Below, one piece after another: positions 13,523-22,730 of a stretch of DNA of 28,691 bases. The notes under the pieces are model-generated. The model had not been told where the DNA came from. It was given only the letters and a program-made list of their open reading frames with translations, and searched no databases. Origin of the DNA: a virus; IMG/VR virus record IMGVR_UViG_3300025131_004669, positions 1-28,691 of that record. One strand, 5' to 3'. A program made the translations under genes and the position numbers. Each line of letters starts with the position of its first letter. The first letter of the stretch is position 1.

Positions 13523-13862
13523 ATATTTCTGCTCCATTTTCATTATCTTCAAATACTGAACAATACTCTAAATCAAATTCTTCATATAATTCACGAGATA
13601 TCATTTCACAACTCTTTGAACCAAATAATAAACATCTCGTTATGCTATCATAATATTTATTTTCAAGATATTCTGTTATATCTCTTTTAAACATTATAAA
13701 TTCTACATCTCTGTCATCGTGATTAACTCTTTTTTTACAAGTTATATGAAATATATGTCTATGTACATCAGCTAAGAATCCTACTTCAGGAAAAACTTTT
13801 CCCGCATTTGGCCAATAATGTAACCCCTCAACTTGTAATTTTACTATAACATTTGTGTTCAT
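13515..13862 (-). CDS. Conserved 115-aa protein of the 7-deazaguanine operon
   Basis: The protein reads VKLQVEGLHYWPNAGK, then VGFLADVHRHIFHITC, then VNHDDRDVEFIMFKRDITEYL, with a C-terminal SCEMISRELYEEF and EDNENGAEIY. The His cluster followed by an acid-rich strand and a helix recalls the T-fold of PTPS/QueD (compare HGHTY and IDFKEIK in the true QueD of this window), but no zinc triad is complete and this is weak inference. From memory, similar short proteins are frequent in T4-like marine phages without assigned function. The ATG overlaps the folE stop as ATGA, and its end overlaps the glycosyltransferase start by 8 bases, so it belongs to this operon. Confidence 0.72.
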   Translation of the reverse strand: MNTNVIVKLQVEGLHYWPNAGKVFPEVGFLADVHRHIFHITCKKRVNHDDRDVEFIMFKRDITEYLENKYYDSITRCLLFGSKSCEMISRELYEEFDLEYCSVFEDNENGAEIYE

Positions 13863-14491
13863 TTTAAATCTCCAATAAAACTATAAAACTCTCCTCTTGA
13901 TTTACTGCCATCTCTCATAAACTCTCCACTCAATTTACTCGTTTTCATTGTAGCATCGTGTTTGACACCACGAACACAAGCACACATATGATTGGCTGAA
14001 ATCATTACAGCCACTCCCATATTACCTTCACACACTCTATCAATATGATTATGAATTTGCATTGTTAAATTTTCCTGAACTTGAGGTCTACGAGAATAGA
14101 ACTCAACAATTCTATTTAATTTACTCAATCCAATAATCTTACCTTCTTTACTTGGAATGTAAGCTGTATGAGCTGTACCGATAAAAGGTAAATGATGATG
14201 AGAACAAAATGAATTTACTTTTATATTTCCTTGAAATACCATTCCATCATACCCATCAATATTATCAAACGCTGTAATTTTAGGTCCTTCTGAATAACAA
14301 CCTTCAGCTAAATCTGCTACAAAGGCTTTAGCAACTCTATTAGGAGTATCTGAACTATTAGGGTCATTTCTCCAATCTATGTTAAGAGCATCCATATACT
14401 TACCATAATGTTTAGCAGCTTCTTTAATCATTTGTTGTTTTTCTTCGTCTGATAAAGGTTTGTTACCATTTGCATATTTTAATTTACTCAT
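13859..14491 (-). CDS. folE: GTP cyclohydrolase I (FolE)
   Basis: A 210-residue type I GTP cyclohydrolase, close to the usual length. It converts GTP to dihydroneopterin triphosphate, the first step of both folate and 7-deazaguanine synthesis. The zinc site is visible as C96, H99 (SFCSHHHLPFIG) and C170 (ANHMCACVRG). The conserved DTPNRVAKAF (48-57), GLSKLNRIVEFYSRRPQVQE (121-140) and RGVKHDATMKTSKL segments are all present. A clear AAGGAG site precedes the ATG. It is followed by the 115-residue gene with an ATGA overlap. With queE and queD upstream and dpdA downstream, a role in DNA base modification is far more likely than folate supply. Confidence 0.96.
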   Translation of the reverse strand: MSKLKYANGNKPLSDEEKQQMIKEAAKHYGKYMDALNIDWRNDPNSSDTPNRVAKAFVADLAEGCYSEGPKITAFDNIDGYDGMVFQGNIKVNSFCSHHHLPFIGTAHTAYIPSKEGKIIGLSKLNRIVEFYSRRPQVQENLTMQIHNHIDRVCEGNMGVAVMISANHMCACVRGVKHDATMKTSKLSGEFMRDGSKSRGEFYSFIGDLK

Positions 14492-15052
14492 TTACACTCC
14501 TTGTATATCAATTTTTCTAATTAAGTGTTTAAATCTGTCATCATTCATTCTTATGGGAATCATTCTTGCATAATCTGAATTAAAACCCGCTATATAAGAT
14601 TCTTTTTGTAACCAACTATTAGGTCTGTCCCATTCTCTATATATAAAACTTCTCATTTCATCTAAATCATAATAAACATAATTCATTGTACCTTTTTGAA
14701 AATGATAAATTCTATTAGCTCTCGAATCTTGTATCCAACCTTTTTCTAAGTTTCTGTTATGTTTATCAAATTCTTCTTTACACCACTTTTCATACTCGAT
14801 ATTAAAAATGTAACCTCTATAGAAATCATTATCTTGATAAAATAAATTTGTCTTTACATCACAAGTAATTTCTGAAGACCAATCTTTCATTTTAAAACCA
14901 AAATCAATCCCCTTAGCCTGTACATCTTTCCACATATCATAATTTGTATAATCAACTACTTCATCAAAATGTTTATTTGCCATTATTCTAAATGCATCTT
15001 CACCTTCTCTACCTTTTCTTAATTGTGTTTCAAATAATTCTTGTGTTGTCAT
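14492..15052 (-). CDS. PD-(D/E)XK-like putative nuclease in the 7-deazaguanine operon
   Basis: A 186-residue protein from the ATG at 15052 (GGAG just upstream; TGATG overlap with queE). Its N-terminal half has a restriction-endonuclease-like pattern: KGREGEDAFRIMA with E18, then KGIDFGF with D50, then ITCDVKT with D65 and K67. The D50 to D65 spacing and the D-x-K pair match PD-(D/E)XK metal sites. The C-terminal half is aromatic-rich with no recognised domain. Situated between queE and folE, it may be a nuclease that spares modified phage DNA and attacks unmodified host DNA, or a repair/packaging nuclease. Fold confidence is moderate; the role is inference. Confidence 0.68.
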   Translation of the reverse strand: MTTQELFETQLRKGREGEDAFRIMANKHFDEVVDYTNYDMWKDVQAKGIDFGFKMKDWSSEITCDVKTNLFYQDNDFYRGYIFNIEYEKWCKEEFDKHNRNLEKGWIQDSRANRIYHFQKGTMNYVYYDLDEMRSFIYREWDRPNSWLQKESYIAGFNSDYARMIPIRMNDDRFKHLIRKIDIQGV

Positions 15053-15804
15053 CACACTCCTCTCGTATCTCCATATGCAATTATATGTAATCGCTCTGTA
15101 TAGTTATATCCATAATTTTGACAAAGTTCCATTAACCACTTTCGTCTTTTACTTAATTCTTCTGGTACTAATCCTTCAGGCATCAACCAAACTTTATCAT
15201 TTGGAATATCTAATATATTTTGTAAATCTTCCACTTCATTTAAATCCTGCTCATTTGATATGACAGGTTTTAATTGATAATCAGGATGATTGTTAATCAA
15301 TTGTTTCATGGCATCATAATTACATCTCCACTTTTCGTGTTTCTTCTTGTCACTTTCTGTAACTTCACGATTAGCAAATGGCATCCAAGTCCCAGGTACT
15401 GGTGTTGAATTTGATAATTTAGGTGATAACGAAATACAATCAGCTTCTGTCTGAACAAATTCAGAACCTTCAGTCTCAATAGTAATTGTGTGATTAAACT
15501 TTTTTCCTATGACACAGAGCTCTTGCAAAAGTTTTGCGTACAATGTAGGTCCCCCACCTGTAATCATTGTATACTTAATTTGTGGGTTATCTTTATAAAC
15601 TTTTACAATATCATTTAATGTATATTTACCACCTTCAGGTTTCCAAGAAGCATAAGGTGTGTCACAAAATGAATTTGAAAATTGACATCTCAACCTACAA
15701 CCAGTAACACGAATTAATATATGAGGCATTCCCATATATTTTCCTTCACCTTGTAAACAAGTGTAAGTTTCTCCTAATGGTTGTTTCTTATTGTAATCTA
15801 TCAT
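15052..15804 (-). CDS. queE: 7-carboxy-7-deazaguanine synthase (QueE), radical SAM
   Basis: A 250-residue radical-SAM enzyme that contracts 6-carboxytetrahydropterin to 7-carboxy-7-deazaguanine. The start LGETYTCLQGEGKYMGMPHILIR is characteristic of QueE. The cluster cysteines are C36, C40 and C47 in GCRLRCQFSNSFCDTPY, spaced CX3CX6C where common bacterial forms have CX3CX2C. The usual GGEP motif reads TGGGPTLY, with the Glu replaced. ETEGS and LSPKLS motifs follow, and the end IIAYGDTRGV fits the family. The ATG lies 17 bases inside queD. Despite the altered spacing, the DTPY and SPKLS signatures and the operon context make the assignment firm; it is probably a phage subfamily. Confidence 0.92.
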   Translation of the reverse strand: MIDYNKKQPLGETYTCLQGEGKYMGMPHILIRVTGCRLRCQFSNSFCDTPYASWKPEGGKYTLNDIVKVYKDNPQIKYTMITGGGPTLYAKLLQELCVIGKKFNHTITIETEGSEFVQTEADCISLSPKLSNSTPVPGTWMPFANREVTESDKKKHEKWRCNYDAMKQLINNHPDYQLKPVISNEQDLNEVEDLQNILDIPNDKVWLMPEGLVPEELSKRRKWLMELCQNYGYNYTERLHIIAYGDTRGV

Positions 15805-16336
15805 CGTATTCTACGATACCCTTTTCATTAGCATATTCTTTTATTTCTTGATATCTTGTATTTCTAAAATTGATTCTTTCTTTTTCTGACATAGAACTAT
15901 AATTACAAATTGTATAACATTTAGGTGTTTCATTTAATTTAAGTTCGTGAATATTTAAATCCTCATAATCTTCAAATAATATTTCCATAGCTAGAAATAT
16001 CTCTCGAGCTAAATTCTCAACAGAAGGATTACAATATTGTCCTGTACCTTCTAAGGACATTTTCCATATCTTACTACCTTCAGTTTTGGCTGCTTGAATA
16101 TAAACTGTATCGTGGGGATTAGCTATAAAACCGTGGTCTAACTTATCATCAATCCATTGACAAGCAACTCTTTTAATCTCTTTAAAATCTATTTGATAAC
16201 CAATTTCTTTCATATCACCAAATGAAAATGTTAAATCAAATAAATATGTATGTCCGTGTAAATTGAAACATTTCATTCTTTCATTCATTACTCTATGGCC
16301 TGAATCAAATGTTCCTGACCTTGTTATGTATTGCAT
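15788..16336 (-). CDS. queD: 6-carboxy-5,6,7,8-tetrahydropterin synthase (QueD)
   Basis: A 182-residue member of the PTPS/QueD T-fold family that converts dihydroneopterin triphosphate to 6-carboxytetrahydropterin. The zinc ligands H14 (DSGHRV), H27 and H29 (LHGHTY) and the catalytic C23 are all present. QIDFKEIK matches the conserved DF motif, and DDKLDHGFI supplies the Asp/His pair. A longer C-terminus than bacterial QueD (about 120 residues) includes NPSVENLAREIF and ELKLNETP, with the usual terminal Glu. It is the first gene of the 7-deazaguanine operon, behind a 66-base gap with a good promoter and an AAGGG ribosome site. Confidence 0.94.
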   Translation of the reverse strand: MQYITRSGTFDSGHRVMNERMKCFNLHGHTYLFDLTFSFGDMKEIGYQIDFKEIKRVACQWIDDKLDHGFIANPHDTVYIQAAKTEGSKIWKMSLEGTGQYCNPSVENLAREIFLAMEILFEDYEDLNIHELKLNETPKCYTICNYSSMSEKERINFRNTRYQEIKEYANEKGIVEYDDRLQ

Positions 16337-18532: not shown

Positions 18533-18601
18533 CTATTCATTTGTTGGTATCTGTTCTGAAAGCCACATTTGTAAATATTGTTCTGCTGTTCCTCTACTCA
18601 T
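18533..18601 (-). CDS. Possible 22-aa micropeptide after glutamine synthetase
   Basis: A short frame, MSRGTAEQYLQMWLSEQIPTNE split over two quotations here as MSRGTAEQYLQ and MWLSEQIPTNE, starts inside the last codons of glutamine synthetase (out of frame) and ends in a TAG. A GGAG lies ten bases before the ATG, slightly far. The composition is amphipathic and not obviously random. The remaining gap down to 18470 is AT-rich and shows no hairpin strong enough to call a terminator. This is a low-confidence call that needs conservation in relatives. Confidence 0.3.
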   Translation of the reverse strand: MSRGTAEQYLQMWLSEQIPTNE

Positions 18602-19589
18602 CGCATACCGTCTCCATTAACTTATGACAAACTCGATAAGGGTCACAATTTGCAGATGGTCTTCTATCTTCTAAATATCCCTTACCTTCTTTTGCTACTT
18701 GATTCGGAACTCTAACTGAAGCTCCTCTATCTGATACTCCCCAATGAAATCTATTAATTGGACAAGTTTCATGTTGTCCTGTAAGTCTTCGTTCATTACC
18801 ATGACCATATAGTTGGATATGTTCATGATGTTTTGCTTCTAACTTTTGTATAGCCGCATGAATAACTTGGTCACCATCTTTTTTTCTCATAGCTTTAGTA
18901 GAAAAGTTTGTATGAGCACCAGCTCCGTTCCAATCACCATCGACCGGTTTAGGGTCAAGTGTAACTGTAACTTCATATTTTGCACAAACTTTTTCTAACA
19001 ACCATCTAGCTACCCATAAGTCATCTGATATTGTTAGTGGGTCATCTGCACCAACTTGATATTCCCATTGGCCTAGCATCACCTCTGAATTAATACCACA
19101 TATTTTAATACCAGCATCAATACATAAATCCATATGTTTACGGGCTAACCACTCACCTTCATTTCTTCCACAATAATAATCGCCTTGTGGTAAAGGTTCA
19201 CCTTCGAAAGGCCATCCTAACGGTCTACCATTTTTATATAAAGTATATTCTTGTTCTATACCAACCCAAACATTTTCTTTCGCATGTTTAGTTTGGATTT
19301 CATCTAAATTCCATCTGTAATTAGTTGAATGTGGACTACCATCTGCAGTCCAAACTTCACATAAAACTAAATATGAATTATTCTTGTCTAATGGATTTTC
19401 ATATAATCTAACTGGTTTTAAAACACAATCAGAATTGTCACCAGGTGCTTGATTTGTCGATGACCCATCAAATCCCCATTCTGGACAGTCACTAATTGAA
19501 TTACTAAAACTCTCTACTACTTTTGTTTTACTTCGTAGTTGAGAAGTTGGTTCAGTACCATCTATCCAAATATATTCAAGTTTTATCAT
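18594..19589 (-). CDS. Glutamine synthetase, type II (eukaryote-like GSII)
   Basis: This 331-residue enzyme carries the GSII signatures: EYIWIDGT (5-12), WGFDGSSTNQAPGDNSD, WVGIEQEYTL with metal-binding Glu residues, NGAGAHTNFST, the ATP-site region LTGQHETCPINRFHWGVSDRG and SVRVP, and the C-terminal DRRPSANCDPY. It condenses glutamate and ammonia with ATP to glutamine. GSII is the decameric form of eukaryotes and some bacteria; bacterial GSI is much longer (about 470 residues), so this is not GSI. All core residues look intact, so it should be active unless repurposed as an amide ligase. Its ATG overlaps the stop of the protease/dockerin frame (ATGA), with AAGGAG inside that frame. It is an unusual auxiliary metabolic gene for a phage. 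Confidence 0.93.
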   Translation of the reverse strand: MIKLEYIWIDGTEPTSQLRSKTKVVESFSNSISDCPEWGFDGSSTNQAPGDNSDCVLKPVRLYENPLDKNNSYLVLCEVWTADGSPHSTNYRWNLDEIQTKHAKENVWVGIEQEYTLYKNGRPLGWPFEGEPLPQGDYYCGRNEGEWLARKHMDLCIDAGIKICGINSEVMLGQWEYQVGADDPLTISDDLWVARWLLEKVCAKYEVTVTLDPKPVDGDWNGAGAHTNFSTKAMRKKDGDQVIHAAIQKLEAKHHEHIQLYGHGNERRLTGQHETCPINRFHWGVSDRGASVRVPNQVAKEGKGYLEDRRPSANCDPYRVCHKLMETVCDE

Positions 19590-19975
19590 TTTATCTCCTT
19601 AGCAAAATATTTTGATTTATCTAATTTACTTAATCTTTCCTTTGTTTCTAATTCTGGAAAGTGCTCTTCTAGCCATTGAACTGATTCTCCAAATGTTATT
19701 ACAAGTATTTCACTAACTAAAGCTATCACATCAAGAATATTTAATATACCATCTTGATTCATATCACCAGTTAAGTATTGTTCTTCTGTTGGTGTTGTTG
19801 TATTTAATACAAACCCAACTATCTCAACCACATCAAGAACATTTAACATTCCATCAAGGTTAACATCACCATATAATTCTACTTCAAATTCATCTTCTGG
19901 TTCTCCAATATATCCAAAGAACCAATCTAATCTACTATGTATCTTCGAGTACACGCCCGGGTACCCTGCATCCGC
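19586..19975 (-). CDS. C-terminal continuation of the protease: trypsin tail plus dockerin-type repeats
   Basis: This 129-codon frame directly follows the TGA of the trypsin gene and stays in the same frame. Its first residues ADAGYPGVYSKIHSRLDWF are the expected last strand and helix of a trypsin (GYPGVY is conserved), so it is not an independent gene; the GTG in PGVY should not be taken as a start. Then come two dockerin type I-like calcium repeats, GDVNLDGMLNVLDVV and GDMNQDGILNILDVI, each with Asp/Asn at loop positions 1, 3, 5 and 9 followed by a helix, and a charged 38-residue tail. Dockerins bind cohesins or otherwise anchor extracellular enzymes. Expression requires readthrough or recoding of the TGA, or internal initiation. 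Otherwise the gene is broken. Confidence 0.75.
   Translation of the reverse strand, partial: ADAGYPGVYSKIHSRLDWFFGYIGEPEDEFEVELYGDVNLDGMLNVLDVVEIVGFVLNTTTPTEEQYLTGDMNQDGILNILDVIALVSEILVITFGESVQWLEEHFPELETKERLSKLDKSKYFAKEIK
19947..19966 (-). other. Hairpin just downstream of the in-frame TGA
   Basis: On the minus strand, ten bases after the TGA, GGGTAC pairs with GTACTC (one G-U pair) around the eight-base loop CCGGGCGT. The 38 bases after the TGA are strikingly GC-rich for this window. Bacterial SECIS elements are hairpins at about this distance from a selenocysteine UGA, but the loop does not start with the expected G unless one more bulged pair forms. Alternative self-pairings (GGGTACCC, CCCGGG) also exist. 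It may simply reflect conserved Gly/Pro/Ala codons. Confidence 0.3.
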
Positions 19976-20716
19976 TCAACCATATCCCCAACTGACTATT
20001 CCGATTAACTCATATTCCCCATCATCATTTGTCATAATGAGTGGGCCTCCTGAATCTCCTTGACAGGAATCCTCACCACCATTAGCATCTCCAGCACATA
20101 CCATATTGTTTGTTGTTTCATTTCCTATGTTACCACAAGAATCATCAATAGGAACATCTACTTCCATAAGATAAGTTGAACCCCAACCACCTGATGATGT
20201 AGCACCCCAACCCATTGTTGTTGCCATTACAGGTTCTTCATCGTGTGCTGTATCTGTACATAATTGTATAGGTTCAAATGTAGTAACAGGAGATGATAAG
20301 TGTAATAGAGCATAATCATTATCCAATGACCAACTACTATATTGTGGATGAACTATAACTTGGTCTACATTTCGTGTGATAGCACCAGTAGTTCCGTTTA
20401 CATTATGTAGTCCAATCTTAACTTGTAATCCGTTATTGTTTCCTTCAACACAATGAGCGGCCGTTACAACCCAATCCTCTCTGACTAATGAACCACCACA
20501 AAAGTGTCCACCCTGTTGTAATGATACCATAAATTCATATTTACAATCTGGACAAGCTGGGTCTACTTCTTCACCACCTACTATAAATGGTTCTGGTAAT
20601 TCACCGTGATTTATTGTATTATGCTCCATTGATGTTAATGTCATTTCTTGTTCTACTGGATTATCAGTATCACAAGAAAGTAAAACTAATATCAGTATAA
20701 ATAATAATCTAAACAT
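19976..20716 (-). CDS. Trypsin-like serine protease lipoprotein, ending at a TGA in place of Cys220
   Basis: The 246-residue product starts with a lipoprotein signal, MFRLLFILILVLLSC, in which LLSC is the lipobox and C15 the lipid-carrying residue. The mature protease starts at IVGG (45-48). The triad is H88 (TAAHC), D134 (DNDYALL) and S222 (GDSGGP), with the oxyanion Gly in place. D216, six residues before the Ser, gives trypsin-type Lys/Arg specificity. Disulfide partners C73/C89 and C194/C207 are present, but C218 (Cys191) lacks its partner because the Cys220 codon is TGA. Translation stopping there would lose the last strand and helix. A GGAG lies 7 bases before the ATG, which overlaps the RNR stop. 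A surface or periplasmic protease is very unusual for a T4-like phage. Confidence 0.88.
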   Translation of the reverse strand: MFRLLFILILVLLSCDTDNPVEQEMTLTSMEHNTINHGELPEPFIVGGEEVDPACPDCKYEFMVSLQQGGHFCGGSLVREDWVVTAAHCVEGNNNGLQVKIGLHNVNGTTGAITRNVDQVIVHPQYSSWSLDNDYALLHLSSPVTTFEPIQLCTDTAHDEEPVMATTMGWGATSSGGWGSTYLMEVDVPIDDSCGNIGNETTNNMVCAGDANGGEDSCQGDSGGPLIMTNDDGEYELIGIVSWGYG

Positions 20717-22730
20717 TTTCTTTCTCCAATTCTTGTGTTTCTTTTATTTGCGAAAAATCAATTTCACAAGTATCATTATTACAGAATTTCTCAATTTCTG
20801 CTTCAGCACCCTTAACTTGTCTGAAAGATAAGAATGATAATTGTTTAACCATTTCATTATATTTTTTCTCCGTTATTTCTTCGTAAGGCATCTGTTTATA
20901 AGCACCTAATTCTAATTTAGGTAAGAATGAAATGCCTTTTAATTGGTATTGGAAATAGTCAAGAGCATTTGCTATTTGTTTACCTTCTGTTTCAGGGTCA
21001 AATGTTACCGTACAACTCACTTGATTATCAGCCCAATACCTCTGCATAAATGCAGCGAGTGCCATTTGTTCCCACATTGGAACTTCACTTACAGTTCTTA
21101 TCCCTTCACCTACATCAACAGGTACTTCAATTACAACTGTTGAGTCTTCACTTCCGAACGCAGATTCGATTTTGTATCCTGCTTTTTCTAATGGTTTAAT
21201 TAATGGACTCATACTCGATAATCTAATTCTTCTAATGTAAAATCTACTTTCAGGATAGTGAAGACCAGGAGTGGAACCCGCCAATAATGAAACAGTTCCA
21301 CTTGGTTTTACTGATGTAGTTTTTATACTACGAGGAACAGCAAACCAATCTGAATATCCTTTATCATATTTTTGTAGAGCATCATATCCTTCTTCTAACC
21401 ATTGTCTTAACTCACCTTGTCCTCTGTGAGTAATGAATTGTGCGATACCACTTACACTACATCCTATTCTTCTGTTTCTTAACATAACTCTGTTTGTTTC
21501 TGGCCAATGGGTTTTACCTAATGTTACCGTTTTTGCATACAGATATGCATATTTTAATGTTGTTATATAATCTTCTAATGAATCATGATTATCTGGAAAT
21601 GTTTCCACTAAACAACATAACTCATATGATTCTAATGATTGTTCAAGACAAGGATTACCACCTGCTACTCTATGGTCTTTATCATCTCCACCATTTTTCA
21701 TTCGTGAGTAGTGTCTCATATTATCTAACCAAGCTAATCCTGGTTCTCCGTTGTCTTTAATTCTTTCTGCTATATCTGTATAATCCATACCTAACTCAGC
21801 AAATACTGAATTGTTAGATGTCCAACCATATTGTTCTCTATGAGGATTTTCTTTATAATTTTTTAAATTGATGTATTCTTCTGAATTTGGGTCACCAAAT
21901 ACTATTTCAGCAGTTCGTCTAACATTACCTGCTACAACACACTTACCAATCAGATTCATTATATCTACGATTGTAGTTATTGTGATTGGTTCACCTATAT
22001 TTTTATCTAATGTTTTTCTAACTGCCTCATGTACTTCTTTAAGTGGTTTAGAACCACTTGATACACCGCCGAATCCTTTGATTGCTGCACCTTCTTCTCT
22101 AATTTTCGTGTAATCAAAATCTACATTTGTTATACCAAGAAAATAAGAATCAAGTAATCTTGAAACTGACTCAACCCAACCCTCTCTTGTATCAGGTATA
22201 ACATATGTTTCTGTACCTCTATCTGTTTTAGGACCTCTAATTACGAAAGACTCCGCACCTTTTGTATCAAAACCTACACCAACTCCGACCATACTTGCAT
22301 CCATTAAGAAACAAAATGGTTTAGCTAAATCTTCTTTTAGATTTGATGTTGATACAAATGCACAATTATTTAGGGCGGCGTATAAACCTCGTTCTTCCGT
22401 GATGGGAGTACCCATTGCCCACAGTCCTCGGCCTGGTGGTAAGAATTTCATATTGAATATTCTGTCGTACATCTCTTGTGCCGACCTTTGTGCCTGCCAC
22501 GCGTTCCACCCTAATTGATGTGAATCTATCCATTTCTTTTGCATGTTGTAAGTACCTTCAACAACTCGTTGAACGGTTTCCCACCACATTTCGTTTTTAC
22601 CATCTTCTTTTAATCTTGAATAGGTTCTCATATACACGAGTTCACCTAATCCATTAAAACCGAATGGTGCTCGTTTTCTTTTATAGCCGTCCATAAATTT
22701 TCCAGACAAGCGAAATTCTTTGTAATCCAT
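20709..22730 (-). CDS. nrdJ: Adenosylcobalamin-dependent ribonucleotide reductase, class II
   Basis: This 673-residue monomeric RNR resembles Lactobacillus leichmannii RTPR. The active-site thiyl Cys lies in NPCLEQ (C361), with the redox pair C123 and C372 (ELCCLVE) and the shuttle cysteines C650 and C655 in CNNDTC at the C-terminus. KPSGTVSLLAGSTPG is the substrate phosphate loop. No radical-generating small subunit gene is near, which fits class II. It reduces ribonucleoside tri- or diphosphates using adenosylcobalamin, so the host must supply B12. The leader of 60 bases contains a small hairpin, and an AGGAG site precedes the ATG. It overlaps the protease start by 8 bases. Supply of dNTPs for phage synthesis is the expected role. 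Confidence 0.95.
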   Translation of the reverse strand: MDYKEFRLSGKFMDGYKRKRAPFGFNGLGELVYMRTYSRLKEDGKNEMWWETVQRVVEGTYNMQKKWIDSHQLGWNAWQAQRSAQEMYDRIFNMKFLPPGRGLWAMGTPITEERGLYAALNNCAFVSTSNLKEDLAKPFCFLMDASMVGVGVGFDTKGAESFVIRGPKTDRGTETYVIPDTREGWVESVSRLLDSYFLGITNVDFDYTKIREEGAAIKGFGGVSSGSKPLKEVHEAVRKTLDKNIGEPITITTIVDIMNLIGKCVVAGNVRRTAEIVFGDPNSEEYINLKNYKENPHREQYGWTSNNSVFAELGMDYTDIAERIKDNGEPGLAWLDNMRHYSRMKNGGDDKDHRVAGGNPCLEQSLESYELCCLVETFPDNHDSLEDYITTLKYAYLYAKTVTLGKTHWPETNRVMLRNRRIGCSVSGIAQFITHRGQGELRQWLEEGYDALQKYDKGYSDWFAVPRSIKTTSVKPSGTVSLLAGSTPGLHYPESRFYIRRIRLSSMSPLIKPLEKAGYKIESAFGSEDSTVVIEVPVDVGEGIRTVSEVPMWEQMALAAFMQRYWADNQVSCTVTFDPETEGKQIANALDYFQYQLKGISFLPKLELGAYKQMPYEEITEKKYNEMVKQLSFLSFRQVKGAEAEIEKFCNNDTCEIDFSQIKETQELEKENV

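Follow-up and report, generated by a model that had tools for sequence, protein, structure and literature searches.

Trypsins carry a conserved cysteine at position 220, and in the gene examined here, from a viral record of 28.7 kb (its whole stretch of 28,691 nucleotides is referred to as the window), this very codon is a TGA, after which the frame remains open into a dockerin domain. The question raised by this locus is whether the TGA ends the protein or is read as an amino acid and, if so, as which one. The preliminary description of the window had reported this arrangement and left four options open, namely insertion of selenocysteine (Sec) or cysteine at the UGA, programmed readthrough, a recent nonsense mutation, and a sequencing error. 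The coordinates of the features are collected in Table 1.

Table 1. Features of the recoded trypsin-dockerin gene, its neighbours and the tRNA-Sec gene of a sister phage (positions are those of the window except in the last line)
Feature	Position	Strand	Basis or remark
Whole recoded trypsin-dockerin gene	19586..20716	(-)	376 residues, lipoprotein-type, one in-frame TGA
Predicted lipoprotein-type signal peptide MFRLLFILILVLLSC, lipobox-like LLSC	20672..20716	(-)	Read from sequence alone
Trypsin (S1) domain, residues 45-267, in-frame TGA inside	19916..20584	(-)	Pfam, relatives and PDB alignment
Cys218 codon, equivalent of Cys191, expected to form a bridge with residue 247	20063..20065	(-)	Alignment
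In-frame TGA, codon 247, Cys220 position, most likely selenocysteine	19976..19978	(-)	Alignment and relatives
SECIS-like hairpin	19947..19966	(-)	Loop GGGC at 19955-19958, begins 17 nt after TGA
Dockerin type I domain, two calcium-repeat-like motifs, residues 282-336	19709..19873	(-)	Pfam
Upstream neighbour, B12-type ribonucleotide reductase	20709..22730	(-)	3' end overlaps trypsin gene start
Downstream neighbour, glutamine synthetase	18594..19589	(-)	Start ATG overlapping the trypsin gene's final TGA
Sister-phage tRNA-Sec	L143:1501-1595		IMGVR_UViG_3300030099_006395, 113 kb

The gene starts with the ATG at 20716-20714 of the minus strand and, after codon 247, continues for 129 open codons until a TGA at 19588-19586, which overlaps the next ATG (ATGA). 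Pfam Trypsin scored 195.5 bits across the in-frame TGA (residues 58-265) and Pfam Dockerin_1 scored 29.9 bits downstream of it (residues 282-336), both over their cut-offs. Cys191, Cys220 and position 189 are named here by chymotrypsin numbering. Alignment with PDB trypsins placed codon 247 at the Cys of SWGYG-C (Cys220) and Cys218 at the Cys of DSCQGDSGG (Cys191). The hallmarks of the S1 family, including the His-Asp-Ser triad, GDSGG and Asp189, were all recognized from relatives and the PDB alignment, and His88, Asp134, Ser222, Asp216 (position 189) and also Cys218 are invariant in 17 sequences. The catalytic triad is intact, and proteolytic activity is inferred from the sequence. Most relatives also retain a hydrophobic N-terminal stretch with SC or GC at its end. 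The arrangement reported in the preliminary description, a trypsin interrupted by TGA at Cys220 with an open frame into a dockerin, held with its coordinates correct and with the gene on the minus strand (20716..19586, TGA at 19978-19976), as did its statement that the partner Cys191 is intact. Its view of TGA as a genuine stop in general held as well, since seven of the 31 genes of the window end in TGA, including the trypsin gene at its own final stop, and an alternative genetic code was rejected on this ground.

Some further observations were made on the gene and its surroundings. The IVGG of the mature trypsin (window 20579-20587) is preceded by Phe, and in many relatives by Met, not by Arg/Lys, and activation would therefore call for a protease of another kind than the one acting on animal trypsinogen. 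One relative (L019:2562-4031) harbors about 125 additional residues between the trypsin and the dockerin, which look cohesin-like by eye and for which a Pfam search named no family. Elsewhere in the window (13859-16336, minus strand), GTP cyclohydrolase I, QueE-like radical SAM and QueD-like PTPS proteins identified by Pfam adjoin one another, a cluster which suggests 7-deazaguanine synthesis, the pathway being inferred.

Comparison of the codon among homologues, a check that had been named beforehand, disclosed only two states. TGA was detected at exactly the position of codon 247 in 19 IMG/VR contigs, representing 17 distinct sequences (over 57 nt from the codon), and TGT (Cys) in 14 related loci, 13 of them distinct, with no other codon at the Cys220 position among the IMG/VR relatives. 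The UGA is aligned with the Cys of the homologues and its flanks are conserved on both sides. A looser TGA-trypsin pattern applied to the whole of IMG/VR returned the same 19 contigs together with five chance matches that are not trypsins, and no further TGA trypsins beyond this family. The recurrence of TGA at this exact codon is far beyond chance. On a protein tree built without codon 247 and the hairpin region, the state changed between TGA and TGT at least eight times, four of the changes being forced by well-supported branches. Recombination of the codon patch between phages may explain some of these switches and was not separated from mutation. One phage (L007) has TGT at the codon yet retains nearly the entire TGA-type patch, and looks like a recent switch to Cys. 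Among cultured phage records only a distant serine protease was noticed, and PHROGs gave no match to the trypsin-dockerin.

The frame after the TGA is maintained in these genes. Downstream of the codon the median dN/dS was 0.358 in the TGA copies and 0.320 in the Cys copies, compared with 0.251 and 0.202, respectively, upstream of it. Of the 14 TGA genes that were checked, 13 have an open frame of 124-134 codons that ends in TAG, TAA or TGA, and in the remaining one the frame extends for 211 codons; the final stop is usually accompanied by a ribosome-binding site and the next ATG. The frame after the TGA is under similar purifying selection in the TGA and Cys copies and is translated. The dN/dS values and the conserved frame ends therefore indicate that the TGA does not serve as the end of a gene in decay. 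The claim that the downstream part is not decayed thus held, both through this selection and through the true stop at which the frame ends. The preliminary description would have been refuted by relatives with Cys alongside a decayed copy here; Cys relatives do exist, but the TGA copies are undecayed.

The TGA copies also have in common a GC-rich patch directly after the codon, in which synonymous sites form a hairpin that is absent from the Cys copies; in the window this patch reaches 66% GC over 32 nt against 31% GC for the sequence. The codon choices differ markedly between the two groups, with TAC for Tyr+5 in 15/16 TGA copies versus 0/12 Cys copies, CCG for Pro+6 in 13/16 versus 1/13, and GCG for Ala+1 in 11/16 versus 0/13, though these statistics are inflated by the kinship of the sequences. 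As single-sequence folding of the window showed nothing unusual, the structure was judged on alignments, where RNAalifold gave a hairpin for the TGA copies and no structure for the Cys copies. Two pairs of the stem covary among the distinct TGA rows, columns 15-30 being GC in 12 and AU in four, and columns 18-27 being CG in 14 and UA in two. Together they yield six doubly changed cells, a value reached in none of 500 shuffles, and the Cys set displayed no excess of covariation beyond chance. The evidence is limited in that the covariation rests on these two pairs, and the outermost pair of the hairpin is missing in 7/16 distinct TGA rows. In an independent-pair test of TGA against an intact hairpin, all 3-4 informative supported pairs agreed, which is too few for significance.

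The published model of bacterial SECIS elements requires a stem of 4-16 bp, a loop of 3-9 nt with a G in its first two positions, a spacing of 16-37 nt and an energy of -7.5 kcal/mol or lower, and some real SECIS elements fall outside it (PMC13188914). The form given by RNAalifold has the 4-nt loop RGGN at a spacing of 17 nt after the UGA, so that loop size, stem length, loop G and spacing are all met. The energy criterion is not met, the hairpin reaching only -3.8 to -6.0 kcal/mol, and because of this cut-off none of the 17 TGA sequences passed a strict automated search with the model. The minimal E. coli fdhF hairpin itself has -4.2 kcal/mol by the same program, and low energy alone is therefore not disqualifying. 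In the SelD gene of the MED589 genome (the candidate host genome described below), GGA lies 17 nt after the UGA between the complementary arms AGTCC/GGATT, as noticed by eye, an observation that is suggestive only.

Concerning the host, a trypsin-dockerin of the Candidatus Neomarinimicrobiota MAG MED589 (L081) is much closer than any other cellular protein, and it lies on a contig that carries ordinary chromosomal genes. This genome possesses a tRNA-Sec with anticodon TCA and a UGA-containing SelD. SelB scored over the curated cut-off in 102 of 149 Neomarinimicrobiota genomes, and SelD did so in 108, mostly with one in-frame TGA. In the MAG that holds the closest homologue, which may be incomplete, no SelB reached the cut-off. 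We infer, on the indirect basis of a single homologous gene and of the Sec trait in its phylum, that a Neomarinimicrobiota (SAR406) bacterium serves as host. A trypsin of similar kind occurs in only 3/245 Neomarinimicrobiota genomes, none with an internal stop, and therefore the TGA copies are known here solely from viral contigs.

With regard to the phages themselves, none of 25 phage records encodes SelB, and the searches of the window and the TGA phages revealed neither SelB nor tRNA-Sec of their own. The sister phage G016 (113 kb), in which the trypsin is of the Cys form, harbors a complete gene for tRNA-Sec (69.4 bits, anticodon TCA, CCA end). No UGA selenoprotein other than the trypsin was found in the phage contigs scanned; many conserved TGA hits in other frames were shadow frames, and where a cytidylyltransferase gene is followed by a conserved TGA, this codon is taken to be its true stop.

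Other observations on tRNA and tmRNA genes were recorded. Across IMG/VR, about 35 of 60 loci matched by a tRNA-Sec-like pattern (L204-L261) hold a tRNA-SeC gene by ARAGORN, several of them in phage-like tRNA arrays (e.g. L213, L223, L242, L249, L258), two with tmRNA; the loci outside such arrays could be prophages or cellular sequence. In G016 a tRNA-Arg(TCT) adjoins a tmRNA with the tag GNEYQYMAVA (L327:1424-1844), and this tag was rejected as host evidence, being unlike the tags of Neomarinimicrobiota genomes. A contig of 9956 bases binned in the Neomarinimicrobiota MAG (L332, G025:C9) contains phage-like genes and its own tmRNA, and a distant kinship with the phage group of the window is seen in several genes of this contig.

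Taken as a whole, the phage trypsin gene very likely encodes a selenoprotein with Sec at Cys220, the residue itself and its selenium content being inferred. Insertion of Sec (or Cys), the first of the four options left open, is favoured because of the conservation of the TGA and its alternation with Cys, the constraint after the TGA, the covarying hairpin specific to TGA copies, the SelB and UGA-containing SelD of a candidate host phylum that decodes Sec, and the tRNA-Sec of a sister phage, and also because a marine Sec trypsin family was independently predicted (PMC2398784). In the proposed mechanism, the ribosome would reach the UGA at codon 247 during infection, and the hairpin, with its loop 17 nt downstream, would recruit host SelB with Sec-tRNA(Sec), so that Sec would be inserted, termination avoided and translation continued into the dockerin. 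The product would be a full-length, exported, lipoprotein-type trypsin of 376 residues with a dockerin tail, in which a Cys191-Sec220 bridge beside the S1 pocket would replace the usual disulfide. Under selenium shortage translation would stop after residue 246, so that one partner of the bridge, the last part of the trypsin fold and the dockerin would be missing. The identity of Sec, the formation of the bridge and the action of the protease outside the cytoplasm are inferences, and a role at the surface, such as cleaving host-surface proteins or the receptors of competing phages, is no more than a guess.

Among the alternatives, programmed readthrough of the UGA without selenium survives best, yet it is unlikely. 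Here a near-cognate tRNA would decode the UGA with low efficiency, stimulated by the hairpin, to give mostly a short form of 246 residues and some dockerin-tagged long form. A downstream hairpin could indeed stimulate readthrough too, and the conserved downstream frame would be explained equally well. Against this, all relatives without TGA have Cys and no other residue, which is the pattern of Sec/Cys exchange and not of a residue tolerated in readthrough; the short form, without one partner of the bridge and with its trypsin fold cut short, could hardly be of use; and the Cys copies yield the long form only. Plain readthrough without Sec is thus much less likely than Sec insertion, though not formally excluded. 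A second alternative, held to be very unlikely, is that the UGA is decoded as Cys (or Ser) by a tRNA with a UCA anticodon or by an otherwise charged tRNA-Sec, with the hairpin still recruiting SelB. The presence of Cys in all relatives without TGA implies that Cys insertion would be functionally neutral, but both the sister phage and the candidate host genome have a tRNA-Sec of ordinary appearance, SelB and SelD occur as the standard set in the candidate host phylum, and no tRNA-Cys with a UCA anticodon was observed in the loci scanned.

The two remaining options of the preliminary description failed, because the same TGA is found in many independent contigs and purifying selection acts downstream of it. 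A recent nonsense mutation, leaving a pseudogene with a dead dockerin part, would need one base only (TGT to TGA) in a genome where TGA is a normal stop, but it is all but excluded by the 17 distinct TGA sequences, by the repeated state changes on the tree, by a downstream dN/dS as low as in the Cys copies and by a hairpin kept in TGA copies only. A single-base sequencing or assembly error, conceivable in that only one base differs and raw reads of the window are not in evidence, is likewise virtually ruled out by the recurrence of the codon in 19 contigs drawn from many metagenomes, with TGA-specific synonymous changes nearby.

The idea of a Sec trypsin is already known. A selenoprotein family of trypsin-like serine proteases was predicted in 2008 by Zhang and Gladyshev from nine Global Ocean Sampling reads (PMC2398784), and it still had no accession in a 2022 review (PMC9312934). 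That family resembles the present genes in being marine, with a trypsin domain, an in-frame TGA at a conserved Cys, many Cys homologues and a SECIS-like hairpin after the TGA, but in the main text of that report phages, a host, a dockerin and an assignment to Cys220 are not mentioned, and the role put forward is a redox one (PMC2398784). It is plausible that those reads came from the present phages, although their identity is not established. The cellular trypsin-dockerin of MED589 shares the domain order and 71% identity over the trypsin part, whereas its residue 220 is Cys, a lipobox-like motif was not found in it, and its setting is ordinary chromosomal. Animal trypsins have in common with the phage protein the catalytic triad, Asp189, SWGYG, GDSGG and the Cys191-Cys220 pair of positions, while the phage gene differs in having UGA for Cys220, Phe/Met before IVGG where they have Arg/Lys, a dockerin tail and an exported lipoprotein-type N-terminus. 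Basilisk-like Bacillus phages carry tRNA-Sec genes (PMC6145125) and, as lytic-type phages with tRNA-Sec, are comparable to G016, but only the tRNA gene is reported, with no phage selenoprotein gene in the relevant passages (PMC6145125). The open literature searched, with subscription papers and preprints outside its scope, yielded no selenoprotein encoded by a phage. What appears to be new is the occurrence in phages, the gene anatomy, the location at Cys220, the recurrent change between the TGA and Cys states, the covariation in the hairpin and the candidate host.

A bolder reading, which we regard as possible only, is that this phage lineage, which probably infects SAR406-type bacteria, belongs to a viral selenium economy, with Sec at the structural bridge of an exported protease, switching between Sec and Cys in both directions, phage tRNA-Sec in some members, and the host selenium supply deciding between the full dockerin-tagged protease and a truncated stub. 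If the Sec reading is true, phage gene expression would depend on the selenium pathway of the host, and an orphan prediction of a marine selenoprotein would gain a plausible genomic home. The many Sec/Cys switches at one structural disulfide would provide a natural experiment at a position, Cys220, to which the usual rationale for Sec, a redox active site, is not obviously applicable. Moreover, gene finders end the protein at the UGA, so that such genes would be hidden in viral catalogues.
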